Shown here piece by piece: positions 8,629-25,680 of a stretch of 64,000 bases of DNA. A program made the translations under genes and the position numbers. The stretch lies in NCBI RefSeq assembly GCF_000321415.2, contig NC_019902.2, positions 2,108,001 through 2,172,000 of the forward strand, read 5' to 3'. The DNA is from Thioalkalivibrio nitratireducens DSM 14787. Its GTDB lineage: Bacteria > Pseudomonadota > Gammaproteobacteria > Ectothiorhodospirales > Ectothiorhodospiraceae. How positions within the stretch are numbered: the first letter of the stretch is position 1; each line of letters begins with the position of its first letter. The notes beneath the pieces were generated by a model. It made no database searches, was not told where the DNA came from, and saw only the letters and a program-made list of their open reading frames with translations.

Positions 8629-8640
8629 GCGGAGAAGGTG
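8629..8640. repeat. left attachment site repeat (attL)
   Basis: GCGGAGAAGGTG, identical to 25593-25604, where it is the acceptor-stem 3' end of tRNA-Ser. Only 12 bases are shared, short for an attachment core, but position, orientation and the neighbouring integrase agree. Confidence 0.65.
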
Positions 8641-8689
8641 TCCGCCATACGAGCCAAAAATTCAATAGCTTGAAAGCGGATTTCTGATC

Positions 8690-8713
8690 GTTCCCACAAC
8701 CGTTCCCACAAAG
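8690..8713. repeat. integrase arm-type repeat pair, left end
   Basis: Two tandem TTCCCACAA boxes 11 bases apart. The same 24-base arrangement recurs at 25445-25468 in the same orientation, just upstream of the integrase start. Paired arm sites near both ends are typical for tyrosine-recombinase islands; binding is inferred. Confidence 0.55.
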
Positions 8714-9000
8714 GAAAAACGCTTGGCGGGGCGGACCCCGGGGCTTCCCTGCTGGTATCCGGGGGCCACTGTATCGCCCCGGCTGCGAATTCTGAACCCC
8801 TATACTCAATATCCTCAAAATCCTCAAAACCCCTCTTGGGAAACTCGGGGTTTCCGGAAGCCCGGAACCAGCCCCCCACCCACGAAAAACCCCGGCACAG
8901 CGGTCTCACGGCAGTCTCAGAACGGTCTCATGGTCTCACGGCGGCCCGTCGGTCCCGGCCTGACGAAACGCACCGGAAACGGCACGGAATCCCAGCAGAA

Positions 9001-9015
9001 CCATTACAATAATGG
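9001..9015. promoter_or_regulatory. palindromic operator before the alarmone hydrolase pair
   Basis: Perfect inverted repeat CCATTA-CAA-TAATGG, 29 bases upstream of the ATG at 9044. It contains a TACAAT that could serve as a -10 box, so a repressor bound here would block transcription of the following two genes. The binding protein is unknown. Confidence 0.45.
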
Positions 9016-9043
9016 TGGACAGACCAAACAGACGGAGGCAGCC

Positions 9044-9229
9044 ATGGGCGGCTCGATCGACAGCATGAGCGAAAGCATGGACCGCCGGCTGAAGAAGATC
9101 ATGGGCCAGGTGGACCCTGCGGACTACGGCATCGACGTTGCCGAGGTAGACCGGCGCATCGACGCGGAACTCGCGAAGGTGAAGCAGCCGGCGCCGAAGA
9201 AGGATCCCAAGGCAGGCGCCGATGAATGA
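9044..9229 (+). CDS. small charged protein coupled to alarmone hydrolase
   Basis: 61 residues, highly charged, with a helical first half ([11 protein letters not shown]) and a lysine/proline-rich tail. ACGGAGGCAGCC supplies a good ribosome site before the ATG at 9044. Its last codons overlap the start of the alarmone hydrolase by 8 bases, so the two are translationally coupled. No family recognised; it could modulate or partner the hydrolase. One of the few plus-strand genes of the element, at its distal end where cargo is commonly found. Confidence 0.6.
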
Positions 9230-9746
9230 AGGCCTGATCCTTCGCGCACTCGCCTTCGCAGCCCACAAGCACCGCGACCAGCGGCGGAAGGATGCCGACG
9301 CCTCGCCTTACATCAACCACCCGATCGCGCTGGCCGATATTCTGGCCAACGAGGCCGGCGTCACTGACCCCGCGGTTCTCTGTGCCGCCATCCTGCACGA
9401 TACGATCGAAGACACCGAAACCACCCTGGAAGAACTCGAGGACGCTTTCGGGCCGGAGATTGCGACCATCGTCGCCGAAGTGACCGACGACAAGACCCTG
9501 CCCAAGGACCAGCGGAAGCAATTGCAGGTGGAACACGCAGCCCATGCGTCTCCACGCGCGAAGCTGGTGAAGCTCGCCGACAAGATCGCGAACCTGCGGG
9601 ATATTGCGGCCACCCCACCGGCCGACTGGTCCACCGAGCGCAAGCGCGAATACTTCGACTGGGCCAGGCAGGTCGTGGACCGCACACGGGACGCGAGCCC
9701 CGGGTTGGGACAGTTGTTCGACCAGGTACACCGCCTTCGGCCCTGA
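9222..9746 (+). CDS. HD-domain small alarmone hydrolase (MESH1/SpoT-like)
   Basis: 174 residues, a stand-alone HD domain of the RelA/SpoT hydrolase type. Visible motifs: [21 protein letters not shown], the metal-binding HDTIEDT near residues 58-64, and a second signature [12 protein letters not shown]. There is no synthetase, TGS or ACT domain, so it fits single-domain small alarmone hydrolases that remove the 3'-pyrophosphate of (p)ppGpp. It sits at the outer end of the integrated element with its own operator-like palindrome, opposite to most element genes: a cargo position. Effects on host stringent response or alarmone-based phage defence are plausible but untested. Confidence 0.85.
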
Positions 9747-9784
9747 CTGCCAGCCCCCGCTGGGTTATTCCGGCCGGTAGGCGC

Positions 9785-10351
9785 TCAGACCGGCAGCCGC
9801 CCGGCCGCCAGCGCTGCAAGCTGCTCGTCGGTCATCGAACTCAGATCCACCGGCATATCCAGCCCCCAGGCCTTGCGCTCGCCGTCCTGGATCAGCTTCA
9901 GGGTCTCGACGTGGATCTTCGCGGCCTTCAGGCCCTCGAAGGCGGCACGCTTCATGGCCAGCAGTAACTGCTGCCGCTCCATCGGATCCTTGATGTCCGC
10001 GGGAATCTGATCCCCGACGTTCTGGTGGCTCTCCTTCGCGGCCCGGGCCATCACCCGTGCGGCCTCGAGTTCGTCTCGGTGCCGGTCGATAATCACGGCC
10101 CGCCGACCGGCTTCCTCGTCCAGGGCAGCGGCCCTTTTTTCCGGGGTAGCCTCAGCCGGCACCCTGGCCACCCTGTCGGCCACCGCGCGGTAGATCGTGC
10201 CGGCCGTGGCCTGCTGCCAGCGCTCGCGTTTCGCACGCTTCTGGACCGCCGACCGGCTCACATCATGGCGAGCAGCGACCGCGTTGAGGGACATGCCCAT
10301 CTCGTACTCGGCTCGGGCCGTTCCCCATTGGTCCAGGGTCAGTGCCGGCAT
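9785..10351 (-). CDS. small-terminase-like HTH protein
   Basis: 188 residues. The N-terminal third is a helix-turn-helix (ARAEYEMGMSLNAVAARHDV then SRSAVQKRAKRERW), the recognition module typical of phage small terminase subunits. The rest is helical and charged. GGGAGGATGAAC ribosome site. It is last in the minus-strand series, a usual place for packaging functions, but no large terminase accompanies it. Alternative: an ordinary phage DNA-binding regulator. Confidence 0.6.
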   Translation of the reverse strand: MPALTLDQWGTARAEYEMGMSLNAVAARHDVSRSAVQKRAKRERWQQATAGTIYRAVADRVARVPAEATPEKRAAALDEEAGRRAVIIDRHRDELEAARVMARAAKESHQNVGDQIPADIKDPMERQQLLLAMKRAAFEGLKAAKIHVETLKLIQDGERKAWGLDMPVDLSSMTDEQLAALAAGRLPV

Positions 10352-10354
10352 GGT

Positions 10355-10654
10355 TCATCCTCCCTCACGTGCACCTTCACAGGATACTCGTTCGGCCACG
10401 ATGATCTCGGCGGATTGCTCGGGGTTCTGAGCCTTGTTCTTCACGCAGGCAAGCCCAGCATGCCGGCCGTTCGGTAATGAGGCACCGCAGGAGCAGAGCG
10501 CGACATAACCACCCTCTCCCCGGGCGCCGCAGTCGGCACAGCGGGCAACGATGCTGCCGTCGGCCCGCTCGCCTTCCAGGACGCACCCCAGGCAGTACCG
10601 GCACACGTGGTCGGTGACGATCCAGCCTTCCGGGTCCGGCCGGTCATCAGCCAT
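10355..10654 (-). CDS. cysteine-rich zinc-binding phage protein
   Basis: 99 residues with three CxxC-type pairs (CRYCLGC, CADCGARG, CSCG) near residues 18-57, implying one or two zinc ribbons. It overlaps the upstream small gene by 8 bases and ends 3 bases before the terminase-like gene. Function unknown; zinc ribbons of this size in phages often bind nucleic acid. Confidence 0.55.
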   Translation of the reverse strand: MADDRPDPEGWIVTDHVCRYCLGCVLEGERADGSIVARCADCGARGEGGYVALCSCGASLPNGRHAGLACVKNKAQNPEQSAEIIVAERVSCEGAREGG

Positions 10655-10853
10655 CGGCGGGCAGACTACCCGGTCCCGACAGCGTCCGGTCCAGGCACCA
10701 GGCCAGAGCCTGCGTGTCGCCCAGCTTCGCCTGCCGAATCATGGCGTCCACCAGTCCCGGCACCTCGGGCTCCAGGCGATCATGAACCGCCAGACGTGCC
10801 GTGCGCGCCAGGTTCCGCGGTCGGCCAGGCTTGCGTCCAGTAGGGGCGGCCAT
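10647..10853 (-). CDS. DUF5681-like small phage protein
   Basis: 68 residues starting MAAPTGRKPGRPRN, a basic GRP-type N-terminus, followed by a helix ending GDTQALAWCLDRTL. This resembles DUF5681-type proteins beside small terminases (pattern AL.GD..AL..CLDR). It overlaps its downstream neighbour by 8 bases. Start chosen at 10853, just after the preceding stop. Probably part of the packaging or regulatory end of the element. Confidence 0.55.
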   Translation of the reverse strand: MAAPTGRKPGRPRNLARTARLAVHDRLEPEVPGLVDAMIRQAKLGDTQALAWCLDRTLSGPGSLPADG

Positions 10854-10854
10854 G

Positions 10855-11586
10855 TCACCGCACCCACTGCGCCAGACGCGGGTCCATGCGCCTGATACCG
10901 CCAGCATCCCGGTGGGCGGTCGCTGCTGCCATCAGCGCCAGCTCGAGCCTCTGGCAGGTCAGCGCCAGCGCGTGAATGCGAACCTCCTTGACCGCATTGG
11001 TCCAGCCGCGCTCCCACTCCATCAGCGCCTTCGTGATGAGTTCATCGCGGACTGGTGCTTCGGCTTCGACTCGCGCGATCAGATCCTCCAGCGCTTCGGC
11101 ATCGGTCGCCAGCAGGTGTACCCGCTGGGCATCGTCGTCGCGCTCATCGCCGGCAGCCCGTCGCTGCCCGATCTCGGCACGCTCGGCCTTCAGGCGCTCC
11201 AGGCGATCGCGAAGCTCCCCGACCTTGTGTCGGTGCGCCTTGATCGCAGAATCCTCGGCTTGGGCCTTCTGTTGCGCCAGGAGCAGGTCCACCGCGCGCT
11301 CCGGCGGTACTTCGATCTCAGGCTTGGCGATCGCCAGCACCCGGTCCACGATCTCCTGGATCTCGGCGCTGGCCTCAGCAGCGCCCCGGACGGCATCCTG
11401 CGCGGCGGCTGCCGATTCCCGGTTCTCGACGGCTACCTGGTCCTCGAGCCGGTCCATCTCTTCGACGGCAAGGTCCAGGGTCGCACGGATCGCGGTCGTG
11501 TCCTCGCCAGCGGCGACGGCGGCGTCCAGTTCGGATTTCGCTCGGGCCACGCGCTCGCGGGCTTTCTCCAGCATGGTGTTTTGCAT
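10855..11586 (-). CDS. coiled-coil phage protein of unknown function
   Basis: 243 residues, almost entirely helical and heptad-like: long A/E/R-rich segments with no hydrophobic membrane stretch. The ATG at 11586 is supported by GAGGAAAG eight bases upstream; the longer frame to 11652 lacks this. Possible scaffold-like or DNA-associated element protein; no family recognised. Divergent from the toxin gene across a short palindromic region. Confidence 0.5.
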   Translation of the reverse strand: MQNTMLEKARERVARAKSELDAAVAAGEDTTAIRATLDLAVEEMDRLEDQVAVENRESAAAAQDAVRGAAEASAEIQEIVDRVLAIAKPEIEVPPERAVDLLLAQQKAQAEDSAIKAHRHKVGELRDRLERLKAERAEIGQRRAAGDERDDDAQRVHLLATDAEALEDLIARVEAEAPVRDELITKALMEWERGWTNAVKEVRIHALALTCQRLELALMAAATAHRDAGGIRRMDPRLAQWVR

Positions 11587-11675
11587 CTCGGTCTTTCCTC
11601 GGTTGACCGGGTTTCGGTTGATTCCGACCCGGTAGAGGAAGATTGTCATCACGACATATCAGCGCGTGACCAAGA

Positions 11676-11691
11676 GTGAACGATGGTTCAC
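11676..11691. promoter_or_regulatory. operator palindrome of the toxin-antitoxin pair
   Basis: Perfect inverted repeat GTGAAC-GATG-GTTCAC, centred 20 bases upstream of the toxin start and in the gap to the divergent coiled-coil gene. Autoregulated HigBA-type operons usually have such a site; binding by the antitoxin at 12004-12330 is inferred. Confidence 0.5.
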
Positions 11692-11702
11692 AATACGGTC
11701 CA

Positions 11703-11999
11703 ATGGTCACGATCCAGACAACCAGCTCGTTCGATGCGTGGTTCGAGTCCCTGCGGGACCGGCAGGGCAAGGCCCGGATCGAAGCCCGGCTGCGGCGCGT
11801 AGAGATGGGTCACATGGGCGACGTGAAGGCGGTCGGCAAGGGCGTGCAGGAGATGCGGATCGACTGCGGACCCGGATACCGGATCTACTTCACCCAGCGG
11901 GGCATCGAGATCGTGATCTTATTGGCTGGTGGCGACAAGGATTCCCAGCGACGGGACATCCGCGCAGCCACCGAACTGGCCCGGCAGATTGGAGACTAA
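11703..11999 (+). CDS. higB: RelE/HigB-type toxin (PF05973-like)
   Basis: 98 residues. Typical short addiction-module toxin: FDAWFESLRDRQGKARIEARLRR near the start, GVQEMRIDCGPGYRIYF in the middle and an IVILLAGGDKDSQRRDI stretch, the usual order in Gp49/HigB-like toxins. Likely a ribosome-dependent mRNA interferase. The start at 11703 fits the family; an upstream in-frame ATG at 11676 lies in the operator. The antitoxin follows after 4 bases. Confidence 0.82.
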   Translation: MVTIQTTSSFDAWFESLRDRQGKARIEARLRRVEMGHMGDVKAVGKGVQEMRIDCGPGYRIYFTQRGIEIVILLAGGDKDSQRRDIRAATELARQIGD

Positions 12000-12003
12000 C
12001 GAC

Positions 12004-12330
12004 ATGACCAACGTGACGCTGAAGCGCTGGGACGTGGTGGACCATCTCCGCACCGACGAAGAGATGGCGCTCTATCTCGACGCCTGCTTCGCTGAAGATC
12101 CAGGGGACGGGAGCCTGATCCGGGTCGCTCTCGGAGACATTGCCAGAGCACGCGGCATGACCCAACTGGCCCGGGATACCGGCATGGCTCGCGAGGGTCT
12201 GTACAAGGCGCTGTCCGCTGAAGGGAATCCGGAGTTCGCGACGATCATGAAGGTCGTGCGAGCCCTCCGGCTTCGGCTGCATGCCCACAGCGCGAGCGAA
12301 AACCGCGAGCCGAGCATCCTGGCGCAGTAG
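12004..12330 (+). CDS. higA: HTH antitoxin (HigA-like, HI1420 family)
   Basis: 108 residues. N-terminal wrap region, then an Xre-like helix-turn-helix (ALGDIARARGMTQLARDTGM, next GLYKALSAEGNPEF), the signature of putative addiction module antidote proteins. Four bases after the toxin stop. Expected to neutralise the toxin and repress the operon at the GTGAAC/GTTCAC site. Its 3' end abuts a truncated minus-strand gene, so the module may have been inserted there. Confidence 0.82.
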   Translation: MTNVTLKRWDVVDHLRTDEEMALYLDACFAEDPGDGSLIRVALGDIARARGMTQLARDTGMAREGLYKALSAEGNPEFATIMKVVRALRLRLHAHSASENREPSILAQ

Positions 12331-12645
12331 TCCTCCGGCCTCGATCGCCCCCGCGCTCGGCTCCTTGTCCTCTGTGCTCGCGGCCTGGATCTGCTGCATG
12401 AATTCCTCGCCGAACTTGGCGCGGATCTTCTCTACTGCGCGTTCCGGGTCTTGCGGCAGGTAGAGCTGGCGGGCGGCTTGGCGCTGGGATGCCTTCTGCT
12501 TGTGGTTACAATCAATTGATTGTGACACTCGCTGTTGGGTTACCCCGATAGCCTCCGCAATCTCCCTCTGCGTCGCCTCCGGGTTCTGCTCGCGCAACTC
12601 CTGAACCCTCGCCGCGATGTCGGCCTGCTTGGACTTCAGCGCCAC
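12331..12645 (-). pseudogene. truncated HTH phage gene beside the toxin-antitoxin
   Basis: Starts with GTG at 12645, overlapping the stop of the LprI-like gene. About 100 sensible residues include KSKQADIAARV, a helix-turn-helix (TQREIAEAIGVTQQRVSQSI) and a tail IQAASTEDKEPSAGAIEAG. That tail is nearly identical to residues 7-25 of the gene at 18817-18978, and KSKQADIA resembles a segment of the gene at 18962-19639. Beyond position 12331 the frame runs on to 11890 antisense to the antitoxin and loses all similarity. Probably a chimeric remnant whose 3' end was replaced by the toxin-antitoxin module. Confidence 0.55.
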
Positions 12646-13445
12646 CGGTCCGGGATGGCGTACTTTTCTTCAAGCGCCCGAGTGCAATCCTTGAGTGTGC
12701 GGTAGATCACGGTGCGGCGGAACTGCCATGCGTTTACTGGCGTTCTGATCTCTACGGCCGTCAGATTCCCCTTCTCATCAAGCACATCATGCGCCGATGG
12801 ATCCTCTCCATTCTCACGATGGTATTGAAGCCAAAACGCAGGGCTCTGGAAGGGCATACACTCGCGATCTCGGTTTTCAGCGTGCCACGATTCCGACTCA
12901 GCCACATCGACCGCTTCCGTCGGTGGCTCGGCTACCGTCAGCTCTAACCCCAACTGATGAAGAGCGTTAAGACGCTGGGCACGCTGTCCGATTCGTACAA
13001 TCTTGCAGGCCAGCATTCGGTTAGAGCCCGCAGATGCACGCTGCGAGTCGTAAAGGCCGCAGTCAAGTTCAACGAACTTGCGCCAATGGTATTGAATCTC
13101 ATCAAATTCCCTCGCTTGCCTCTCACGCCAATCCTCCGGCGTGTTCAGGTATTCACGAGGATAACGAACGGCGTGATCTCGAGCTTGGGGGAGTAATCTT
13201 CTAAGTAGCTCTTCCTGGCTCGTATGCAGCGCGTGTACGCAATCTGAAAAATGGTAGCTGGACCTGGCGGGCGTGCACTGTGCTTTCGGGTCTTCGTAGA
13301 TGACAAGCGATCGTGCAGTTTCGCCTTCAAGGGCCGTTCGCGTTTGGGCGTACACAACTCCGTGACCGGCAAGAATGATCGCCGCAATGAGCGGCAAGAG
13401 AACAAAGCCAGCCAGGACAAGCCGCAGTACACCCACCTTGAACAT
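12636..13445 (-). CDS. membrane-anchored LprI/DUF1311-like protein
   Basis: 269 residues with one N-terminal transmembrane or signal helix (LVLAGFVLLPLIAAIILAG). The middle matches the LprI lysozyme-inhibitor-like pattern: DCVHALHTSQEELLRRLL followed by RKFVELDCGLYDSQRAS and a conserved late cysteine (ACKIVRIGQ). AT-richer than its neighbours, so probably recently acquired cargo. The ATG at 13445 has GGAG eight bases upstream; a GTG three codons earlier is in frame. A periplasmic role against lysozyme-like activity is only suggested by the family. Confidence 0.5.
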   Translation of the reverse strand: MFKVGVLRLVLAGFVLLPLIAAIILAGHGVVYAQTRTALEGETARSLVIYEDPKAQCTPARSSYHFSDCVHALHTSQEELLRRLLPQARDHAVRYPREYLNTPEDWRERQAREFDEIQYHWRKFVELDCGLYDSQRASAGSNRMLACKIVRIGQRAQRLNALHQLGLELTVAEPPTEAVDVAESESWHAENRDRECMPFQSPAFWLQYHRENGEDPSAHDVLDEKGNLTAVEIRTPVNAWQFRRTVIYRTLKDCTRALEEKYAIPDRWR

Positions 13446-13576
13446 CAACGACACTCCACACCGTTCACGGACATCCTTGAGGCTAGACCACCCGGGCGCC
13501 GGCTTACCAGATCGAGTTCACGGCAGGACGAATGCGCCCCGGACGTGCCGGGGCTCAGATGGGAATGACGGACTGG

Positions 13577-16167
13577 TCAGCCAGACCCGAACGCGAAGTC
13601 GCTGAGATGGTAGGCGCCTTCGCCGACGCTGGTGTCCCGGACGCGGCCATCGACCTCGACCTCAACTTCCGGCGGCCCCTCCGGTTGCGGATGGACGTGC
13701 ACCACCACATTGACCGGATCCGGGTTGTTGCGCTGGTAGGCGCTGAAGTGGCGGTTGAAGCGTTCCCGGTGCTCGGTAGGCTCGCGCCAGTAGTAGGCGC
13801 CTTCGTCCCGGAAGTTGCCGGGGCCGGCGTTGTAGGCCGCCAGGGCATCCTCCAGCGTGTGGATATACGGCTTGTCCCACAGGTGGCGCATGTACTTCCC
13901 GGCCGCCTCGATGGATGCATAGGGGTCGAACGGGTCGTTCAAGCCCATGTCCCGGGCGGTGCCCGGCATGAACTGCGCAATCCCTTGTGCCCCCGCATGG
14001 GAGACCGCGTTCGGATCGTGATTGCTCTCGGTACGGGTCAGCGCCCAGATCGTGCCCGAGGCAGGCTGTAATGGGCGTCCACGCGCTCCATCGCGGCCCG
14101 TGACGGGATTCCATCGGTCGAGCCGATCCCCGGCCCGACCGTGTGCAGGTCAGACCACGGGATGATCCCGGGGCCGATGCGTCCCAGCCCGGACAAGCCG
14201 AATCGTCTGGCGGCCTGTGATTCCGGGGTCTCCCGCTCATCGCCCGGGCCGATGCGCCCCAGCCAGGACAGATCATCCGACGGCTCTGGCTCGATGGGCT
14301 CTGGTTCGGGCAACTCCGGTTCAGGTCGGCGCCGGCGGAAGAACCAGAACGGGCCGCGGTTCTCCCAGCGCTCGCGTTCCTGTCTCAGTTCCTCCTGGCT
14401 CATGCTCGACCTAGGGGTCGGCAGCAAGGGCCGGGCCGCGTCATCGATGGCCTGTCCAACCCCTGCCCCAACCCTACCCCCACGGCGGAACCACGCGAGG
14501 TTTTCGTTGATCTTCTTGAGCTCGTCGATCAAGTCGTTCACTACACCCAGGCCGTCCGCGATGTAGCCCGTCAGGTTGGTAAGCAACGGGCGGGCGTCGC
14601 GCACCAGTTGCTCGAGCTGGTCGGAAAGGCGGGCAGTCTCGCTCTTCCACTTTGTGGATACGGTCGGGATAAGCCCTTCCTCGTCCGCCCTCCGGATGCG
14701 GTCGGCCACGTCCTCGACGTTCACCGGCCCGGCCGCACGCGCTTCCTCGATGATCTTCGCGATCTGCCCCAGGCCCGACGCGTCCATCTCGGACAGGTCG
14801 ACGCCGGACTGCTCCAGCAGCGACTGCATGTTGCCCAGGCCCGACTGGCGCATCTGCTTGTCCACCGCCATCATGGCCTCAGCCTGCCGGCTGGACAGCC
14901 CGAAGAACCCGCCCAGCGCCGAGTACGACGCATACGGGTTGTTCAGGTTCGCGGCATCGCGCCGGAACTGGTCCATCACGATCTGCAGAAGGGTCCGGTT
15001 GTCGTCGCCACCGAAGGCCTGGCCCGGGGTGCCGAACGCGCCGTAGTCGCGCAGGTAGCGCTGCTTGTAGATGTCGCCGGTGACGCCGGACAGCGCCCGG
15101 TACATGAAGAACTCGCCAGCCTCACCGCCACCGATGTTGCGGATCCCGGTATCGGCCGCGGCCAGGATGCGCTCGCCGGCACCGCCCTTCAACGCGGTCT
15201 TGCCGGTCGCGGCCGATACGTCGAACATCGCCGAGTAGGCCTGCATGATCGCCCGCGTGTTGGGCGCCTCAAGCGTCGATTCCCAGATCCGGTCCGCCAT
15301 CCGCGTCACCTGACCCAGGAGTTCATCGCCGCGGGCATACATTCCGGACCGGCCGATCATCTCGGCCAGCAGGGTTGCGAACTCGCGCCGGTCCTGGCGC
15401 TCGAACACGCCCGCGAACTGCAGGGTGCCGAACGAGCGCGTGGTTCCCTCGGCATTCATCCCCAGGCCGCGGGCCAGCGCCACCGAATCCTTGACGGCAT
15501 CGGTGGCGCCTTCCACCTCGCCGGAGGCACGCGCGTAGCCCTCGGTCAGACGGGCGGCCTCGGCATTGGCCAGCCCGAATTGGGTCACCAGCCCGGTCAC
15601 GCTGTCGCGCAGTTCGTCGAAGGTGCGCCCCAGCTCGTCGAAGCGCATCAGGGTATCGGTGGCATCGCTGGTCTGGTCGGCCTCACGCAGGCCTCGCATC
15701 AGGCTGGCGACAAGGCCACCGCCCATTGCGATAGGCAGCGCCGTGCGTGCGAGCGTCCCCAGCGAACCACCCATCGGTGCCGCGAAATCGCCCCCGCCCG
15801 GTGGACGCTGGCCGCCATCGCCACCGTAGGCATGCCCGGATCCCTGCACCAGCCGATGCAGCGCCTTGTCCCGCTGCTGCTGCTCCGGAAACGCCCGCCC
15901 CCAGTCCACCGCCCACGGATCGCGACCCGCCTGGCCCGAATCGCGCAGGCCACGCGTGAACTGGCTTCCAGGCGAGATCCGCTGTAGCGCGAGCATGCTG
16001 GAACGCAGCCGGCTCATATCGCGCTCGAGATCCTTCAGCTCCGGGTGCGACAGGTCCATCTCGGAGAAGGCCTTGCCTTCCTGTCCAGCACGCTGGATGG
16101 CGCGCTGGATGTCCTGCATCGCACGCAGGACGCTGCTGGGATCGGCGCTGAATCGAACGTCACTCAC
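13577..16167 (-). pseudogene. tape-measure-like protein with lytic transglycosylase domain, frameshifted
   Basis: About 863 residues when joined across a one-base deficit near 14064. The 709-codon first part (GTG at 16167, AGGAGG ribosome site) is long, helical and phage tail tape-measure-like, with a glycine/alanine hydrophobic patch (about residues 140-165). It passes into an SLT lytic transglycosylase domain: MERVDAHYSLP, then in the next frame GTIWALTRTESNHDPNAV with the catalytic Glu, AGAQGIAQFMPGTARDMG and LAAYNAGPGNF. The first frame ends at a stop near 14038, just after the junction, so only a fusion by frameshift gives an enzyme. No slippery heptamer is present, which favours mutation or sequencing error. 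Confidence 0.7.
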
Positions 16168-18112: not shown

Positions 18113-18175
18113 GTCTCGGTCCTCGGTTGTGGCGCCCGTCGGCACCGTGGTACGTCGTACAGGTTCATGGTCGCA

Positions 18176-18820: not shown

Positions 18821-18978
18821 TGGTCGCCCCCGCTGGCCTGCTTTCCCTGCCACTCCAGGAACGCGCGCAGTTCATCGTCGCTCAGCGCCAGGTACGCTTC
18901 CTTCGCGGCCTCGATCGACCCCGCGCTCGGCTCCTTGTCCTCGGTGATCGCGGCCTGGATCTCAGGCGCCTGGAACAC
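18817..18978 (-). CDS. small phage protein with TEDKEPSAG segment
   Basis: 53 residues from a GTG at 18978, overlapping the end of the gene upstream. Contains IQAAITEDKEPSAGSIEAA followed by LSDDELRAFLEWQGKQ. The first stretch recurs almost unchanged at the end of the truncated gene at 12331-12645, proving shared ancestry of the two sites. Too short for a family call. Confidence 0.45.
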   Translation of the reverse strand: MFQAPEIQAAITEDKEPSAGSIEAAKEAYLALSDDELRAFLEWQGKQASGGDQ

Positions 18979-19639
18979 GCGCAGCAGTGCCCCGGACTGC
19001 GGATTCTGCCGAGTCCACCGGGATGCTCTTGGTAGGCTTCCGGAACCCGGCCTCGATCGCCGCAGCGTTGGCGGTCAGTTCGCCGGCTTCCACCTTGCCC
19101 AGCAGTTCGGGGTTATCGCGGGCCAGGCGGCGGAGGGTGTAGGTCTGGTCATTGCCGCGAGATAAACGGGTTACATTGTCACCCGTTTTATTCCCCCTTC
19201 CCGGTCCTGCCTTGCCTTCCGCTACCGGGTTCGCAGGCAACGGATTCTCCGCAGCCTCCCGGACCTTCGTCGCGATGTCGGCCTGCTTGGACTGCACCAG
19301 CCGGGCCTTCTTGCCGGGGTCGTGCTCGGCGATGTACTCGCGCAGGAATGAGCCCAGGGAGAAGATGTGCCCAAGGTAGCTGTCGGCCCACTCGAAGAAG
19401 TCGGCGGCGCAGGTCCATGTCACCGGCAAATACCCGGGCAATTCCGTTTCCTCGCCCGGTTGGTGCCACTCCACGGATGGGAGTGTCTTGGTCACCAGCC
19501 GGGTGTATTCCTCGAGATCCATCACCCGGCGGGACATCGCGACATACGTCCAGCGCAGTAGCGCTTCAATCGGCGTGATGTCGCCATCCTCAAGCGCGAT
19601 CCGCCAGGTGTTGTAACTACGAGGGTCACGCTGCGACAT
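18962..19639 (-). CDS. phage HTH-like regulator or replication protein
   Basis: 225 residues. The first ~110 residues carry many aromatic residues (W, Y, F). The C-terminal part has TYTLRRLARDNPELLGKVE and GELTANAAAIEAGFRK, a helical signature common in phage and plasmid regulators. The internal SKQADIATKV is shared with the truncated gene at 12331-12645. Its start overlaps the nuclease gene. Function not known. Confidence 0.5.
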   Translation of the reverse strand: MSQRDPRSYNTWRIALEDGDITPIEALLRWTYVAMSRRVMDLEEYTRLVTKTLPSVEWHQPGEETELPGYLPVTWTCAADFFEWADSYLGHIFSLGSFLREYIAEHDPGKKARLVQSKQADIATKVREAAENPLPANPVAEGKAGPGRGNKTGDNVTRLSRGNDQTYTLRRLARDNPELLGKVEAGELTANAAAIEAGFRKPTKSIPVDSAESAVRGTAARVPGA

Positions 19640-20040
19640 CGGTTGCCCTCCCCGTTTCCCGCACCAGCGCAGCGAACGCAGGCAGCGTCACGGCCGCTGT
19701 CCAGTCGATCCCGGGCCACGGTCCTAGCCCCGGTCGCACGTCCTCCAGGAGCACCAGGACACGCCAGGGCGCGCGATCCTCCCTCCAGGCTAGGGCAAGG
19801 ACGTAGACCGGCGGATTCCGCCTGAGCCTCAGCCTGCGTCCACCACGCGGCGAGCAGAGAGGGTGTCGCCCGCTTGTACCGCTTCACCTCGACAGCGCAG
19901 GGACCGACGCCAGCCAGATCGTGCCCGCCATCCCGTGTCTGGGACAGGTTCCGAGCGATCCCCGGCCCAAGCTCGGCCTCGAGCAACCGGCGCAGTTCGC
20001 GTTCACCCGAAGCCCCTTTCGTGCGGCTTGCTGCTCCCAT
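19626..20040 (-). pseudogene. PD-(D/E)XK-like phage nuclease, frameshifted
   Basis: The first part (MGAASRTKGASGERELRRLL, then ARNLSQTRDGGHDLAGVG and CAVEVKRY) has the E...D...ExK arrangement of a resolvase-like PD-(D/E)XK nuclease. Near 19806 the sense moves to another frame (VLALAWREDRAPWRVLVLLE and on to LPAFAALVRETGR), ending at 19626 and overlapping the next start. 415 bases is one base more than a whole number of codons. In the unshifted frame the protein degenerates and runs on to 19522. Either an inactivating indel or a sequencing error. Confidence 0.6.
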
Positions 20041-20198
20041 CACTGACCCTCCTTGCTCGTTGCGGCCGGCTGGAAGTCCTCGGGCATCTCCCAACTCGTG
20101 TCTTTGGGCGTTCTCGGCGGCTCCGCCCGGCGGAATCCACCGGCTCGTCGGGGCTTTCGGCCCGGTTTCGGGCGGTACAGGTCGCGTTGCTGTGTCAT
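20040..20198 (-). CDS. small basic phage protein
   Basis: 52 residues, proline/arginine-rich (YRPKPGRKPRRAGGFRRAEP), unstructured-looking. AAGGAG eight bases upstream of the ATG at 20198 decides the start; the stop overlaps the nuclease start as TGATG. Function unknown. Confidence 0.4.
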   Translation of the reverse strand: MTQQRDLYRPKPGRKPRRAGGFRRAEPPRTPKDTSWEMPEDFQPAATSKEGQ

Positions 20199-20316: not shown

Positions 20317-20652
20317 TCATGCGGTCGCCCTCCGCTTGCCGGACGGCCGCGCCGATCTCGCGGTCAGCACCGCGTCCGGGATCAGCGTCCAGGACTCCCG
20401 CAGGCTGCCGTCCCGGCCGGTGTAGCGCCCCCGGGTCATGCGCCCTTGGGCTGTGACCATCTCGCCCTTGGCGGCCCGGTCCAGGGCCTCGGCGGCAGCC
20501 CCGAAGGCCAGCAGCGATACCCACACCGGTTCCTCGGCGTTGTGCGGGGTCACGTCGATAGCCACCGACGCGCGAACCATCGGCTTGCCGGTCTTGGTCT
20601 CGCCCGCCACGGGATCGGCGCCCAGGCGGCCATGCACGGATGCGTAGATCAT
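20317..20652 (-). CDS. ssb: single-stranded DNA-binding protein
   Basis: 111 residues with an OB-fold SSB pattern: MIYASVHGRLGADPVAGETK, VRASVAIDV, EPVWVSLLAFG, ALDRAAKGEMVTAQGRMTRGRY. It lacks the long acidic C-terminal tail of chromosomal SSB, as often seen in phage or plasmid versions. The start overlaps the upstream stop as ATGA. Likely works with the DUF3987 replication protein two genes upstream. Confidence 0.75.
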   Translation of the reverse strand: MIYASVHGRLGADPVAGETKTGKPMVRASVAIDVTPHNAEEPVWVSLLAFGAAAEALDRAAKGEMVTAQGRMTRGRYTGRDGSLRESWTLIPDAVLTARSARPSGKRRATA

Positions 20653-21368
20653 CGCGTCACCCCCCGCAGCCATGCGTTCGCGGCGTATCGGCCAGCATTC
20701 GACTTGCGGATTTCCACCGGCTCAGCGTCGGCAGCCTCGCGCCAGCGGCGGGCATATTCGGCCAGCAGGGCGTCCCGGTCGCGTCGAAACCGAGTGCGGG
20801 CATCGACGAACTTCCAGTCCTCGCGCAGCAGCGGCAGTCCGTCCAGCGGGCCGACATCGCGCTCTGTGCGGGCAGCCGGTGCAGGGGGCGGCGCGGGCTG
20901 GGTCTTCCGTTCCCGGGCCAGCCGCTCGGCGACGGCGACGGCGAAGGCGCGCAAGAACCGCGGATGGCAATGGGGCTCGTAGCCCTCCGCCCAGTCGGCG
21001 GCGCCTTCCTCGCCGAATGCCTCCAGCAGCTCAGAAAGCGTGACCGGCAGCCCCTCGGCGGCTCGGGCCAGGGCGATCCGGAGTTCTGTCAGAGTGCGCT
21101 TGGGACCGGCCCGCGACTCGGTGGACGACGGTGGCACTGGCTGCCCAGGTGTCGCACCAGTCGCAAGTGTCGCTGTCGCAGACTGGCCCGGGGCCAGGCG
21201 CGTGATTTCCCGTGGCCTATCCTCAATATCCTCAATATCCTCAAAACCCCCAGTGGCGCGTTCGCGACCGCCATCGGGGCGGAGGTTTTGAGGGTTTTGA
21301 GCGTTTTGAGCATAGGGGGTTAGATTTCGCTCTCCGCCGTCCGTCCTCAGGTATGCGCGCCAGGTCAT
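20649..21368 (-). CDS. phage hypothetical protein carrying internal DNA repeats
   Basis: 239 residues. The N-terminal ~70 residues are low complexity (AQNAQNPQNL and GGFEDIEDIEDRP), encoded by short tandem DNA repeats rather than looking like a domain. The C-terminal ~150 residues form a compact helical region (ELLEAFGEEGAADWAEGYEP, LARERKTQP, RRDRDALLAEYARRWREA). Both ends overlap neighbours by ATGA, so it is coupled between the DUF3987 protein and SSB. Its 5' end may double as a DNA site for replication. Confidence 0.55.
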   Translation of the reverse strand: MTWRAYLRTDGGERNLTPYAQNAQNPQNLRPDGGRERATGGFEDIEDIEDRPREITRLAPGQSATATLATGATPGQPVPPSSTESRAGPKRTLTELRIALARAAEGLPVTLSELLEAFGEEGAADWAEGYEPHCHPRFLRAFAVAVAERLARERKTQPAPPPAPAARTERDVGPLDGLPLLREDWKFVDARTRFRRDRDALLAEYARRWREAADAEPVEIRKSNAGRYAANAWLRGVTR

Positions 21369-22888
21369 CGCCAGCCCTCCGCGATGTCCGGCCGCACCTC
21401 GATCACCGTAGACGGCCTGCCGCCGCCGGGTTGGGCGCGATCGACCGTGCGGACATAGCCCCGTTCCTCGAGTGGCTCGATCGCCTCGGCGAAATGGCGC
21501 GCACGCGGGAACGTCCCGCGGAGCGCCTGGTGGGCGTCGCGCATCGTGACGCGCGCATGCCGGCCCCGCTCGATCCAGTCCCATACCTTTCGGGCCGCGG
21601 CGATGCTGGGATCGGCACCCATCAGATCCAGCGCAGCCAGGCTATGCACGGCGACCGTCGCGACGATCTCCAGCGCGGCAGTCATGGTCAGCGCACTGAT
21701 CTCCGCGTCCCACGGCTTCCCGCGGGCGTACTCGGTCGCATGCAGCACCGCTGCGATCCGTGCCGCTTGCCCCGGGGCTTTCCCGGCCCAGTCCGTGGCG
21801 TGCTCGAACTCACCCCCCGGGCGCATGTCGGCCTCGATCCCGCGTGCGAACTCCAGCCACGCGGCACGGGCATCCGGCGACAGGCGCAGCAGGTATCGCC
21901 GCTCTCGTCCGTCGTCATCCGACAGTGCGGGCCAGTCCAGCATCGCCCGTACGCCAGCAGCATAGGCGTCCCGGGTGCCGTCCTGCAGCGGCGCAGGGGT
22001 CAGCGTGCGGTACCCCAGCGGGGACGGTGGCAGCAGGTACAGGATGCGCCCGAGCAGCCCGCGACCGCGGAAACCGGGCATCGTCGCCAGCCCGCGCAGC
22101 ATGTCGGGCTGCGGAGACAGCCCCAGCGTCAGGGCCGGGGCAGTCAGGTAGACAGGCGGACGGCTGCCGCGGTCCACGCGCTCGGCGTCCCCGCTCCACG
22201 CCTTCAGGACCATGTCGAGGTTCGGGATGCCATTCGAGTAGCGGCCAGCCAGCAGATCGAAGATGCCTCCCTCCGACGACAGCCATGCCATGCACTCCCC
22301 ATGATCGGCGAGCAGCACCCCCATGCGCTCCGGGGTTGCGTCCGATGTCCACAGTTGCGGCGGTCGGGGGATCTCGGGCATTGCTGCCTCGATGTCGGAC
22401 GCCTCATCAGCGGCACCCATGTCACCCTTTTTCGCGGCGCGGGCGCGCAGTTCCTTCACTCGGGCCTGCATCGTTGCGACCGTGGACGTGGTGCGCCGGA
22501 TCTCCGGCTCGATGTCCCGGGCTGCATCCCGCTCCCAGGCCAGCAGCGGCGCAGTCGCCGCCGACTGGACGGCCGACTTGCGGTTTCCGGGCGGCAGGGC
22601 GACCGCGACCCAGAGGTTGGCGGGCTCGATGTGGCCCGGCTGAACCAGCACCCGCAAACGGCGCGCGGCAGCCGCGGAGCAGGTCGCCAGTATCAGCCCG
22701 ATGGCCAGCTCCGGCGGCGTCTCGGTCGATGCGGCCAGCTCAGCCGCGAATGCCCCGGCCCAGCCCGGCAGTACGTCCGGTGCCAGGCGCGGTAGTCGTG
22801 GCGTGTCCAGCGGGATCAGGTCCGGCCACGGCTCGGGCTCCGGCCGCACTCGCGCAATCTCGATCGTCGGAGCGGGGCTATGCGGCAT
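21365..22888 (-). CDS. DUF3987 replication/primase-associated protein
   Basis: 507 residues. Matches the DUF3987 (YfjI-like) phage/plasmid family: ELAIGLILATCSAAAARRL, LWVAVALPPGNRKSAVQSA (P-loop-like), then SDATPERMGVLLADHGECMA and WLSSEGGIFDLLAGRYSNG, a conserved GFRGRGLLGRILYLLP and a C-terminal winged-helix-like tail (MRDAHQALRGTFPRARHF). Proteins of this kind act in element replication, probably as helicase or primase partners. The ATG at 22888 lies in the 3' end of the preceding gene. Expected to act with SSB. Confidence 0.78.
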   Translation of the reverse strand: MPHSPAPTIEIARVRPEPEPWPDLIPLDTPRLPRLAPDVLPGWAGAFAAELAASTETPPELAIGLILATCSAAAARRLRVLVQPGHIEPANLWVAVALPPGNRKSAVQSAATAPLLAWERDAARDIEPEIRRTTSTVATMQARVKELRARAAKKGDMGAADEASDIEAAMPEIPRPPQLWTSDATPERMGVLLADHGECMAWLSSEGGIFDLLAGRYSNGIPNLDMVLKAWSGDAERVDRGSRPPVYLTAPALTLGLSPQPDMLRGLATMPGFRGRGLLGRILYLLPPSPLGYRTLTPAPLQDGTRDAYAAGVRAMLDWPALSDDDGRERRYLLRLSPDARAAWLEFARGIEADMRPGGEFEHATDWAGKAPGQAARIAAVLHATEYARGKPWDAEISALTMTAALEIVATVAVHSLAALDLMGADPSIAAARKVWDWIERGRHARVTMRDAHQALRGTFPRARHFAEAIEPLEERGYVRTVDRAQPGGGRPSTVIEVRPDIAEGWR

Positions 22889-23237
22889 GGGCCACCTCCT
22901 GCGCCACGTACAGCGCCCCGGTCGTCGCATCGAGCACGCGATCAGTGTCGTCGCGGATCAGCGCCTCGATCAGCCCACGCACCTGGTCGCCGTCGGTCGG
23001 ACCGGCGCGGACCAGCAGTACCGGGTCGTGCCCGGCGCAGGGGCGCCAGTCAAACGCCCGCGGATCTTCGCCGGTCGGACAAACGAGCGCCACGAGCCGA
23101 CTCCCCGCACGCTCCCGCGCCCAGCGCCACGCTCCGGGGCCGATCGCGACCCACGCGGTCGCTGATGGATCGGCCCGCAGCCGGTCGGCGTGCCGTCGCA
23201 GGTAGGGCGGCAGGCGGCCGCGCGGCGGACGTAGCAT
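22878..23237 (-). CDS. phage hypothetical protein next to a MITE-like insertion
   Basis: 119 residues with a basic N-terminus (MLRPPRGRLPPYLRRHADRL) and an alpha/beta body; overlaps the DUF3987 start by 11 bases. The start at 23237 lies at the edge of a 266-bp inverted-repeat insertion, so its ribosome site and promoter now come from that insertion or are lost. No family recognised. Confidence 0.5.
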   Translation of the reverse strand: MLRPPRGRLPPYLRRHADRLRADPSATAWVAIGPGAWRWARERAGSRLVALVCPTGEDPRAFDWRPCAGHDPVLLVRAGPTDGDQVRGLIEALIRDDTDRVLDATTGALYVAQEVAHAA

Positions 23238-23597: not shown

Positions 23598-23822
23598 TCA
23601 TAGCAGCCCCCGAGCGCGGTCATGCGCATCGAGCGCGTCCGCGGGCCAGCGGGTCATCTTCTCGCTGATCCGGACCGGTGGAGGGATGATCCCGTCGCGT
23701 ACCCATCGCCATACGCTCTGGCGCGCGATCCCGTAGCGTGCCGCCACGTCGACATCGCGCAGCAGGCGCAGGCGCGTAGGGGCGGTGGATGGGGTGGTCG
23801 GTACTGCGGTGTGGTCGGTCAT
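23598..23822 (-). CDS. alpA: AlpA-family excisionase/regulator
   Basis: 74 residues with the AlpA/MerR-like winged helix: LLRDVDVAARYGIARQSVW followed by RWVRDGIIPPPVRISEKMTR. AlpA proteins next to P4-type integrases act as transcriptional activators and excision factors. GGAGG ribosome site before the ATG at 23822; the longer frame to 23897 has no such site. Lies just downstream of the integrase, the standard order in P4-like islands and Gram-negative phage satellites. Confidence 0.82.
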   Translation of the reverse strand: MTDHTAVPTTPSTAPTRLRLLRDVDVAARYGIARQSVWRWVRDGIIPPPVRISEKMTRWPADALDAHDRARGLL

Positions 23823-23929
23823 CGGCGCCTCCGTGTTGTTTCGCCGATGCCATCCTATTGTCACGACATGATTCGATGCGCAACTGCGCGGCCGCATCTG
23901 TCGGCAGCCGCTACACCTTCACGTGCCCA

Positions 23930-24072
23930 GGGTTCCCCGGGGTTCCCCGGGATTCAGCCCCGGGGAACCGCTGGGGGAACCGCTGGGGAGCTGACAATTT
24001 CAGTAATTTCAATGAGTAGCATTGAGGGTTCCCCGGGTTCCCCCGGTTCCCCCGGTTCCCCCGGTTCCCCGG
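23930..24072. repeat. GGTTCCCC direct and inverted repeat cluster upstream of alpA
   Basis: About nine copies of GGTTCCCC or its complement GGGGAACC lie between the integrase 3' end and alpA. The last five are tandem with 8-9 bp period (24026-24072). An AT-rich patch (ACAATTTCAGTAATTTCAAT) sits between the two groups. Likely iterons or regulator sites; not a CRISPR, since units are short and have no spacers. Confidence 0.55.
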
Positions 24073-24089
24073 CAAACAATAGTCGACCG

Positions 24090-25373
24090 TTAAATTTTCG
24101 CGCCCCCCTCGCGCCGAATCGGCAGCACTTCCGCCGCCCCGTGTGGCGCGTTCAGGAGCTTCGCCCAGTCCTCCATGAGCCGGCGGCGCTTGGTCAGAAG
24201 ATCGCCCCTGCGGTAGGCGCGCTCGACCGCGTTCGGGATCGTGTGCGCCAGTGCCATTTCCGCCACCTCATGCGGGTAGCTGGTGAACTCGCTACACCAG
24301 TCACGGAACGTGCTCCGGAACCCGTGCGGCACCGCGTCCACTTTCATGCGGCGCAGGACCGCGCTGATGCTCATGTCCGACAGTTGCCCGAGCCGGGGGG
24401 ACGCGAATACCAGATCGCAGCCTTCGTGCTGCGGCAGGGCTTTCAATAACCGGATGGCGTCATCACACAGGGGAACCACGTGCTCGCGGCCGGCCTTCAT
24501 CCGGTCGGCGGGAATCGTCCACGTCCGGGCCTGCAAGTCGATTTCGGCCCAGGTTGCACCGCGAACCTCGCCGGACCGGGCGGCGGTCAGGATCAGGAAT
24601 TCCAGCGCCCGGGCGGCCATGCCTTCGCGCTGGCGCAGGGCCATCATGAAGTCGTGCATTTCCGGGATCGGCAGCGCCTTGTGGTGCCGAACACGCTTCA
24701 GCCTGGTTGGTTTGGGCAGCACGGCGTCCAGGTTTCCCCGCCAGCGGGCCGGGTTGTCGCCGGATCGGTGGCCACTGGCGGTCGCCCAGTTCAGTACCGC
24801 CTCGATTCGGCCGCGGACCCGGGAAGCCGTCTCGGGCTTCGTGGTCCACAAATCGTCCCGGCTCAGAGCCTCGACCACATGCGCCAACTCGATGGCATCC
24901 ACAGGGAGCGCGCCCAGTACTGGGCTGGCGTAGGCGTTCAGCGTCGCCGACCACTGGAGCGCATGCTTCGGGTTGCGGAACTCGCGGGTCTTGGCGGCCA
25001 GGAGCTTGCGGGCCGCCTCGTCGAAGGTCAACGCCTTCGCCTCGGCAGCGGCCCGGGCCGCGCGGGCCTCGCGGCGGGCCTGGACGGGATCAACCCCGCT
25101 CGCGATCTGTTCCCGGAGAGCGCGCGCCTTCTCTCGAGCCTGGGCAAGGGTGACGTCAGGGTAGGCACCGAGGCCGGCATCACGGCGAGCGGCAAACGGC
25201 CGGCCGGTCGAACTCGTGCGCGTGATCGGCAGCGCGTACCGGAAAACCCAGCTTTTCGCCCCCGTCGGCTTCACCACGAGGTAGAGACCGGCGACGCCAC
25301 CGACGGCATAGCGCCCGGGCTCGACCAGGCGCTTGAGTTCGATTGGGGACAACTCCTTCGATCTCAGTGGCAT
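24090..25373 (-). CDS. int: P4-type tyrosine integrase
   Basis: 427 residues. DUF4102-type N-terminal domain (KLYLVVKPTGAKSW-type region, here GVAGLYLVVKPTGAKSWVFR), central core-binding domain, and catalytic domain with the arginine in AARSGEVRGATW, HGFRSTFRDW (H-x-x-R) and AHTIPNAVERAYRRG supplying the His and nucleophile Tyr. Located next to tRNA-Ser, whose 3' end is the inferred attachment site. The ATG at 25373 is preferred; the open frame upstream to 25478 runs through arm-type repeats and is probably non-coding. Confidence 0.92.
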   Translation of the reverse strand: MPLRSKELSPIELKRLVEPGRYAVGGVAGLYLVVKPTGAKSWVFRYALPITRTSSTGRPFAARRDAGLGAYPDVTLAQAREKARALREQIASGVDPVQARREARAARAAAEAKALTFDEAARKLLAAKTREFRNPKHALQWSATLNAYASPVLGALPVDAIELAHVVEALSRDDLWTTKPETASRVRGRIEAVLNWATASGHRSGDNPARWRGNLDAVLPKPTRLKRVRHHKALPIPEMHDFMMALRQREGMAARALEFLILTAARSGEVRGATWAEIDLQARTWTIPADRMKAGREHVVPLCDDAIRLLKALPQHEGCDLVFASPRLGQLSDMSISAVLRRMKVDAVPHGFRSTFRDWCSEFTSYPHEVAEMALAHTIPNAVERAYRRGDLLTKRRRLMEDWAKLLNAPHGAAEVLPIRREGGAKI

Positions 25374-25444
25374 CCGTTCGTCCGCCCCACAACTGGTCCC
25401 ACAAACCGGGTCCGAGACCACCACCCAAGATCGGATGGGGCCAC

Positions 25445-25468
25445 GTTCCCACAACCGTTCCCACAAAG
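25445..25468. repeat. integrase arm-type repeat pair, right end
   Basis: Two TTCCCACAA boxes 11 bases apart, identical in sequence and orientation to 8690-8713. A related TCCCACAAA lies at about 25394. Between the integrase start and attR. Confidence 0.55.
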
Positions 25469-25523
25469 AGGATAGCATTGGACGCGACTTCTTGCGACAA
25501 CCTGTTACAGGACCAGAAAGGGT

Positions 25524-25570
25524 AAAGCCCGTCAGAACAGGCGCTTATGCTCCATATTCTGACGGGCTTT
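25524..25570. terminator. perfect 14-bp-arm hairpin downstream of tRNA-Ser
   Basis: AAAGCCCGTCAGAA (25524-25537) and its exact complement (25557-25570) enclose 19 bases. On the minus strand it follows the tRNA 3' end by about 20 bases and is followed by TTTACCCTTT, so it is the probable terminator of the tRNA transcript, now supplied by the element. The arms would also terminate in the other direction. Confidence 0.6.
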
Positions 25571-25590
25571 GACTTGCTGCTACAGTGAAC

Positions 25591-25680
25591 TGGCGGAGAA
25601 GGTGGGATTCGAACCCACGAGGGGCTTGCACCCCTGCCGGTTTTCAAGACCGGTGCATTCAACCGCTCTGCCACTTCTCC
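25591..25680 (-). tRNA. tRNA-Ser (UGA)
   Basis: 90 bases with a GGAGAAG/CTTCTCC acceptor stem, D-loop, anticodon TGA in the CTTGAAA loop, a long class II variable arm (GCAGGGGTGCAAGCCCC region), T-arm GGTTCGAATCC and an encoded CCA end. The long variable arm and anticodon identify serine. Its 3' end contains the 12-bp attachment core. Confidence 0.95.
25593..25604. repeat. right attachment site repeat (attR, in tRNA)
   Basis: GCGGAGAAGGTG, the complement of the tRNA acceptor-stem 3' side including the discriminator base; identical to 8629-8640. The tRNA stays intact because the element supplies the same bases. Confidence 0.65.

Follow-up and report, generated by a model that had tools for sequence, protein, structure and literature searches.

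Introduction

The stretch of DNA analysed here (hereafter the window) covers 64,000 nucleotides of Thioalkalivibrio nitratireducens DSM 14787 (contig NC_019902.2, positions 2,108,001 to 2,172,000), and it contains at 8,629-25,604 a 17-kb insert of mobile DNA at a tRNA-Ser gene, which carries a gene for a phage tape measure protein (TMP) and in which no capsid, portal or large terminase gene of the related phages was found. What does such an island do with a phage tail gene? Comparison with related islands, plasmids and phages indicates that the island is probably an integrative phage satellite, in which the satellite's own TMP on a helper particle would give a chimeric tail. As a satellite that brings its own TMP, the island is well supported in its anatomy, and the mechanism is likely. 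An earlier preliminary description of the window had already interpreted the island as a satellite, which is supported here, and its suggestion that such an element could redirect helper tails is backed by the comparison. Chimeric tails were demonstrated in 2026 in a single satellite family, found in a single bacterial species.

The Island and Its Insertion Site

The boundaries of the island are defined by a 12-bp att core, GCGGAGAAGGTG, which has only two copies on both strands of the window, at 8629 and 25593, the second falling in the 3′ end of tRNA-Ser. The sequence TTCCCACAA occurs only four times in the 64 kb, as one pair inside each end (8691/8703 and 25446/25458), and these pairs are likely to be integrase arm-type sites. 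In the sister genome G013, the matches to window positions 6320-8610 and 25590-29658 are separated by 1.65 kb at the same tRNA, so that the 17 kb can be regarded as inserted DNA. The att core, the arm-like repeats and the flanks in G013 thus confirm the tRNA-Ser island as originally delimited. Its GC content resembles that of the surroundings, and composition is therefore no marker of it.

The Tape Measure Protein

The main part of the TMP in the window is a protein of 709 aa, which by itself gives only weak tail matches in PHROG. By tblastn it matches six phage records, representing five phages (ST4, PHB04, phiT5282EW, fHe-Yen8-01 and Mecenats66), and in all five the gene order is sheath, tail/tube gene, two small genes, TMP homologue, hub and baseplate genes. 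Since the slot from sheath to hub is the tape measure position, the 709-aa protein is read as a TMP. The phiT5282EW record has no product names, and its sheath and tube genes were identified by homology search; the fHe-Yen8-01 record labels the TMP homologue "phage particle associated protein". The earlier tape-measure/transglycosylase assignment is thus upheld by homology and by TMP position in myophages, but in the window the gene lies in two frames: the TMP and its lytic transglycosylase end (SLT) are split by a frameshift (a one-base length difference), while in relatives they form a single gene. The intact TMPs of the two islands of G013 (islands A and B) have 827 and 828 aa, and the SLT end in the window is 92% identical to their C-terminus. 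The window copy may be impaired by this frameshift.

The values of dN/dS, obtained from three sequences, are 0.24-0.28 for TMP, 0.02-0.18 for SLT and 0.20-0.23 for the coiled-coil protein cc244, all three of which are under purifying selection; with the small terminase-like protein (TerS) included, the range across three pairs is 0.02-0.45. When the SLT part was kept in the TMP profile, 44 of 47 genomes were matched, outside the islands around the SLT end (positions 758-942 of 959); these rows were dropped, and SLT-free profiles were used in the later TMP searches.

Related Islands in Other Genomes

Two of the 47 family genomes contain the TMP: the genome of the window (G000) has it at one locus and G013 at two. 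Island A begins at tRNA-Phe, and island B lies at tRNA-Met with a tRNA-end repeat about 17 kb away. TMP, SLT, TerS, the cysteine-rich protein zn99, a DUF5681-like protein, cc244 and the small proteins p71, p130, p147, p71b and a 61-aa protein are common to the window, A and B at 63-93% protein identity. By contrast with this common block, the ends change: the integrases of A and B are 27-30% identical to that of the window, the replication gene is of the DUF3987 type in the window, DUF5906 in A and an AAA_25 protein in B, and the SSB gene with its neighbour is shared by the window with B only. A fixed block of TMP, TerS and coiled-coil genes with changing ends would be the pattern of satellites, and not that of a decaying prophage. 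A CRISPR-like array stands beside island A (L012:9349-10254, G013 336348-337253), and its 12 spacers gave only short chance matches to the loci compared.

In wider sets, which overlap with the family set, 2 of 369 class genomes matched the TMP profile (G000 and G195) and the same two matched the cc244 profile; among 398 phylum genomes only the window genome matched the TMP profile. The element of G195, which belongs to another family, lies near tRNA-Met and has an integrase 32% identical to that of the window, replication-type genes (assigned by eye), homologues of cc244 and of the DUF5681-like protein, a zn99 match (36%, 9e-6), and an intact TMP of 707 aa with SLT. It also encodes a hub homologue of 469 aa, which is 36% identical (4e-82) to the product of the gene after the TMP in phage contig L032 and 36% identical to that of PHB04. 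In the family of G195, cc244 was matched in one of seven genomes, G195 itself. No full prophage with a related TMP was found in the 47 family, 369 class or 398 phylum genomes, where the matches were islands only. The genome contig collection gave no match for TMP or TerS, and neither did the viral contig collection with single-sequence queries of the two; the TMP alignment matched L032, L033 and L034 in the latter, L034 around SLT only, for which reason it was not used.

Absence of Structural Genes and the Search for a Resident Helper

Eight head, tail and packaging proteins of phage ST4, namely the major capsid protein (MCP), portal, large terminase (TerL), protease, sheath, tube, spike and baseplate J, were used as queries (E<=1e-3) against nine elements, i.e., the four islands (window, A, B and G195) and the plasmids L064, L068, L069, L071 and L072, and no match was obtained in any of them. 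The controls were positive: phage loci were matched for MCP, protease, sheath, tube, spike and baseplate J, and TerL and portal matched all four other phage records (PHB04, phiT5282EW, L032 and L033) at 51-63% and 55-72% identity, respectively. That is to say, the absence of capsid, portal and large terminase, noted before from the window alone, is borne out for ST4-type genes, and relatives with a full set of capsid and packaging genes, which would have made the island a decayed prophage, were not found among the three related islands and five plasmids. In the same nine elements, the TMP was matched in all, the hub in G195 and L068 only, and the ST4 TerS-like protein in the window, A, B, L068 and L069.

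The preliminary description had proposed looking for a co-resident helper prophage, and none was found: the TMP profiles match satellites only, and ST4 TerL and portal gave no match in the complete genomes of G000, G013 and G195 or in plasmids L064, L068, L071 and L072 (L069 was left out of this whole-record search). PF03237 is likewise absent from G000. By TerL and portal, therefore, no prophage of this phage group is resident in the three genomes, and the helper is more likely to be an outside phage, probably a virulent one. The sheath family PF04984 occurs in 6 of the 47 family genomes; its loci in G000 and G013 were considered as a helper prophage and rejected, since on visual inspection they were taken for a contractile injection system. 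In G000 this locus lies past the window end (L060:1-11181, G000 2172001-2183181), with the PF04984 sheath and, by eye, tube-, gp25- and baseplate-like proteins; it probably extends into the last part of the window, and G013 has a near copy (L061).

The Phage Group Matched by TMP, Hub and TerS

The hub query matched nine phage records representing eight phages of 86.2-95.5 kb, and the TerS of plasmid L068 matched five records, all within that set. The matching proteins, which show 31-47% identity to this TerS, belong to ST4, fHe-Yen8-01, phiT5282EW, Touem01 and Mecenats66, and all of these phages except Touem01 are also matched by the TMP of the window. Two or three modules (TMP, hub and TerS) hence lead to one phage group, the myophages of the ST4/PHB04/fHe-Yen8-01 type.

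A TMP tree of eight rows was unresolved, and one of 16 rows was used, in which a change between phage and satellite is counted whether it is gain or loss. At least three such changes are needed, the starred branches force three, and a single change was obtained in 0% of 200 bootstraps. The TMPs of L064, L071 and L072 nest beside those of Enterobacter and Yersinia phages, L068 and L069 lie near ST4, and the islands group with L032 and L033. Repeated capture of the TMP argues for a function.

Small Terminase-like Protein and cc244

TerS of the window, A and B matches phrog_1206 at about 5e-11 over most of its length. Across the islands its N-terminal part is 40-65% and its C-terminal part 81-87% identical (split point set by eye); the C-termini of A and B are 62-66% identical to that of ST4 over 32-37 aa, and the TerS of the window is 32% identical to the ST4 TerS-like protein (7e-12) over a longer stretch. 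A variable N-terminus and a kept C-terminus, together with phage TerL proteins 51-63% identical to that of ST4, would fit changing DNA targets and a shared motor.

Homologues of cc244 occur in G195 (E 4.8e-18) and in plasmids L069 (8e-16) and L068 (9e-11), and the genes at its place in L071 and L072 are unrelated to it by BLAST. Its AlphaFold model is all helix (pLDDT 79), and the structure search gave nothing at E<=0.001. Since the L068 copy had no match in the phage collection, cc244 looks satellite-specific from sequence comparison; as a guess, it is a candidate capsid-size or assembly factor.

Plasmid Forms

With the TMP of the window as query, 8 plasmid records were found, and 23 with either the core of the PHB04 TMP or the TMP of plasmid L072. 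All 23 are typed non-mobilizable, 22 are of 12,565-30,364 bp, and some carry the TMP gene in pieces. In the nine plasmids examined no capsid, portal or large terminase is listed (in the PLSDB tables, which are incomplete). Plasmid L068 (pLH84-a-B) unites an integrase, a CHC2 primase, a TerS-related gene, a cc244 homologue, TMP and hub on one circle. The elements that carry the TMP include tRNA islands in two gammaproteobacterial families and "cryptic" Enterobacterales plasmids of 12.6-30 kb, a few of which carry beta-lactamase genes.

In two of the nine plasmids a Tn3-type transposon interrupts the TMP gene (L067:10489-18203 and L070:6071-16352), one with blaTEM-1 and one beside SIR2/ATPase genes. 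The hub was found in only two plasmid records, L068 and a Rhodovastum plasmid of 112,258 bp (NZ_OW485606.1). The latter is the remaining one of the 23 records, has TMP and hub about 5 kb apart, and might be a phage-plasmid akin to the helpers.

Gene Content of the Island

The features of the island are listed in Table 1. The arrangement of integrase, alpA and replication genes at one end, as described before, is matched in Pfam by integrase, AlpA, DUF3987 and SSB. As for the small-terminase-like genes once placed at the other end, one stands as TerS-like and the other is a DUF5681-like gene below the cut-off. The alarmone hydrolase is borne out by its HD-domain match, but it is accessory, as are KfrA and p110, because these three have no tblastn match in the sister islands A and B.

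Table 1. Features of the tRNA-Ser island and its ends (window positions).
Feature	Position	Strand	Evidence
attL core, 12 bp, GCGGAGAAGGTG	8629..8640	.	two-copy search of window
left TTCCCACAA pair	8689..8713	+	25-bp copy identical to 25444-25468
iteron-like repeat	8799..8833	+	94% copy of 21216-21250; repeat search
short conserved protein, 61 aa	9044..9229	+	63-73% identity to islands A, B
HD-domain alarmone-hydrolase-like, accessory	9222..9746	+	PF13328 1.2e-22; tblastn: none in A/B
TerS, small-terminase-like	9785..10351	-	phrog_1206 5e-11; relatives in phage ST4, plasmid L068
zn99, cysteine-rich small protein, possible regulator	10355..10654	-	71-72% in A/B; 36% in G195 (9e-6); no Pfam match
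DUF5681-like small protein	10647..10853	-	PF18932 0.0027, under cut-off; homologues in A, B, G195
cc244, all-helical coiled-coil	10855..11589	-	80-86% in A/B
toxin-antitoxin pair: Gp49/RelE-like toxin, HI1420-type antidote	11676..12330	+	PF05973 1.6e-5, PF21716 1.2e-26
helix-turn-helix (HTH) protein, C-terminal part overlapping toxin-antitoxin pair	11890..12645	-	HTH matches all under Pfam cut-offs
LprI-like hypothetical, accessory	12636..13454	-	PF07007 0.0048, under cut-off; none in A/B
SLT (lytic transglycosylase) end of TMP, other frame	13577..13969	-	PF01464 1.4e-7
TMP main part, myophage-type, 709 aa	14038..16167	-	81-82% to B, A; phage TMP 24%, E 4e-14
p110, accessory	16189..16521	-	none in A/B
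KfrA-like plasmid protein, accessory	16568..17386	-	PF11740 (KfrA_N) 1.4e-22; none in A/B
p71, small, beside TMP	17538..17753	-	79-93% in A/B
p130, small	17753..18145	-	73-75% in A/B
p147, conserved small protein	18176..18619	-	84% (A), 63% (B)
p71b, conserved small protein	18638..18853	-	83-84% in A/B
p225, hypothetical	18962..19639	-	part matches segment placed elsewhere in A, B
PDDEXK/RusA-like nuclease	19522..20094	-	phrog_244 2e-14; PF24608 6.6e-5, under cut-off
SSB	20317..20673	-	PF00436 2.7e-8
9-bp iterons, TATCCTCAA x3	21216..21250	+	repeat search
DUF3987 replication helicase/primase-like	21365..22930	-	PF13148 1.7e-96; phrog_2373 DNA helicase
AlpA-like excisionase/activator	23598..23897	-	PF05930 1.8e-4, barely over cut-off
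GGTTCCCC(C) 9-10-bp repeat arrays	23930..24063	+	repeat search
tyrosine integrase	24090..25478	-	PF22022 2.2e-27, PF13356 1.6e-20, PF00589 3.6e-14
right TTCCCACAA pair, arm-like	25444..25468	+	repeat search
tRNA-Ser(TGA), integration site; attR core 25593-25604	25591..25680	-	tRNA call; core search

None of the small proteins beside the TMP has homology to a known tail assembly chaperone; p71 is a candidate for this role by position alone, and p130 may be related to p71 (22-28% in alignment). The idea that p71 and p130 resemble type III secretion needle or rod proteins found no support in Pfam. The HTH protein has homologous segments in A and B, and the toxin-antitoxin pair on the opposite strand, which is likely an insertion, has 94-96% identity in island B and no match in A. 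A 57-bp repeat with 95% identity lies at 12336-12392 and 18906-18962, in segments that are placed differently in A and B. The TATCCTCAA iterons are a possible replication origin, at the level of a guess, and the GGTTCCCCC arrays, which stand beside alpA and the integrase gene (23930-24063) and have a related array near the far end of island A (L012:8657-8750), are possible replication or packaging sites.

Proposed Mechanism and Its Alternatives

In the mechanism proposed, a myophage of 80-96 kb of the ST4/PHB04/L032 type would infect the cell, whereupon the element would excise and replicate; the satellite TerS would take over the large terminase of the helper, so that satellite DNA would be packaged in helper heads; and the satellite TMP, in some relatives together with their own hub, would replace the helper TMP during the building of the tube, giving a chimeric tail. 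The satellite TMP might thereby set the tail length, escape a defence directed against the helper TMP, or adapt the entry of DNA to the host that follows.

Several observations weigh against this mechanism. For the TMP itself, the proteins of the window family are only about 22-30% identical to phage TMPs, the copy in the window is frame-shifted, and the satellite TMPs (707-949 aa when intact) show no consistent shortening relative to those of the phages (830-996 aa); the TMP tree has long branches (G195 and L032), which make the grouping of the islands with L032 and L033 unsure, and two of its rows were flagged for odd composition. As for TerS, the structure search against PDB and BFVD gave nothing at E<=0.001, the TerS candidate of G195, chosen by eye, has no TerS match, and neither G195 nor plasmids L064, L071 and L072 are matched by the ST4 TerS-like query. 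Moreover, the TerS-like gene of ST4 itself lies about 20 kb from TerL across the record start and beside a methyltransferase gene, and it could encode a DNA-binding protein of other function. A tRNA-end repeat was not found for island A or for G195, and no helper for the host of the window was found, with TerL and portal giving no sign of one in the genomes of G000, G013 and G195.

If the island were instead a decayed prophage, that is, a myophage of which the TMP remains after the loss of the genes for head, tail tube and packaging, the frameshift would be readily understood, and TMP, TerS and the nuclease are indeed genes of phage type. It is hard to see, however, why this one tail gene should persist, and the same other genes be missing, in four chromosomal elements whose integrases and replication genes differ, a pattern repeated by the small plasmids, or why the TMP should be intact in A, B and G195 and, like SLT and cc244, under purifying selection; the genome sets of the family (47), class (369) and phylum (398) gave TMP matches in these elements only. 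This origin is considered very improbable. To regard the island as a plasmid-like element with the TMP as chance cargo, moved by conjugation or general transduction and hijacking no particular helper, would account for the plasmid-type KfrA and HTH genes, the iteron-like repeats and the occurrence of related elements as plasmids. Nevertheless, all the plasmid records are typed non-mobilizable, no relaxase was found among the window proteins scanned with Pfam, and several unrelated backbones carry the TMP, in many cases alongside TerS, coiled-coil or hub genes, with TMP and TerS tracing to one phage group, so that little credence is given to this explanation.

Prophages and satellites are known to defend themselves by interfering with tail assembly (PMC11364771; see also PMC10884400), and the TMP might accordingly be an anti-phage decoy, which poisons the tail assembly of an infecting phage and is absent from satellite particles. 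Such a decoy would need neither the transglycosylase domain retained in the intact TMPs nor the hub that is its neighbour in G195 and L068, and PADLOC, run on 10 window proteins (the TMP not among them), gave only a weak coiled-coil match on KfrA. The decoy is therefore judged unlikely. The satellite reading is preferred, and a broader form of it is held tentatively, at a little short of even chances: unrelated satellites would have repeatedly captured TMP, sometimes with hub and TerS, from one group of 80-96-kb myophages, the swap of the TMP would be general and convergent, and the plasmids would be phage-borne, in particles with chimeric tails.

Comparison with Known Systems

The general traits of satellites are present here, i.e., an own integrase or replicon with replication genes and an incomplete set of head, tail and packaging genes. 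Phage-inducible chromosomal islands (PICIs) of Gram-negative bacteria have int, alpA, replication genes and terS in order at a tRNA gene, and the island of the window shows this order; PICIs are not known for a TMP. The markers of P4-like satellites are Psu, Sid and Delta, and no Psu or Ogr/Delta match in Pfam was found in the window proteins scanned (p311 and p119 lay outside the scan). The ST4/PHB04/fHe-Yen8-01 myophages (86-96 kb) have relatives of the TMP, hub and TerS-like genes but differ in possessing a full head, sheath, tube and TerL.

Among described satellites, the phage-inducible chromosomal minimalist islands (PICMIs) also have alpA and are small elements that exploit virulent phages. 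The one described measures 6,110 bp and has three core proteins, and neither "tape measure" nor "terminase" appears in the main text of PMC10803314. Some capsid-forming PICIs (cf-PICIs) are reported to have putative tmp genes (PMC12987554, legend of Extended Data Fig. 10), and the same paper names such genes in elements resembling the PICI-like elements (PLEs) of Vibrio cholerae; in contrast to cf-PICIs, the present island is without ST4-type capsid, portal and TerL, and its genome is without PF03237.

The closest likeness in description is to the PLEs themselves, which, according to PMC12987554 (March 2026), build tails from helper parts except for the TMP, the tail assembly chaperone and the hub, which are their own; the tails of PLE11 and of the phage differ by about 10 nm, and deletion of tmp reduces PLE transfer. 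The statement in the preliminary description that such an arrangement was not recognised from described satellites has thus been overtaken, at least by what that source reports of chimeric PLE tails. Both kinds of element have their own TMP (with a hub in G195 and L068), lack a full tail set and would take the other tail parts from a myophage. The differences are that the present elements occur in other bacteria and apparently go with another phage group (ICP1, on the helper side of PLEs, is not among the matches to the window TMP or the G195 hub, its presence in the collection being unchecked), that they have a TerS-like gene and the int-alpA-DUF3987 plan, and that PLE function is established by experiment, while here the elements are known from their genes and the function is inferred; the two are likened by description and not by sequence.

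No literature on the present elements was found among the matches listed, bioRxiv and most subscription papers being outside the scope; PMC10448857 and PMC12908700 contain the terms "satellite" and "tape measure protein". The principle has been known since March 2026, and what is apparently new is the hosts and lineages, the plasmid forms and the signs of repeated capture. If the reading holds, satellites of different descent took the same tail gene repeatedly, which would make the TMP a central point of control in the satellite-helper relationship, small plasmids that lack a known transfer route would gain one, and the helper group can be named, namely the ST4/PHB04/L032-type myophages. The use of an own TMP, shown so far in satellites of the cholera bacterium, may be widespread, since relatives occur in other bacteria and on small plasmids.

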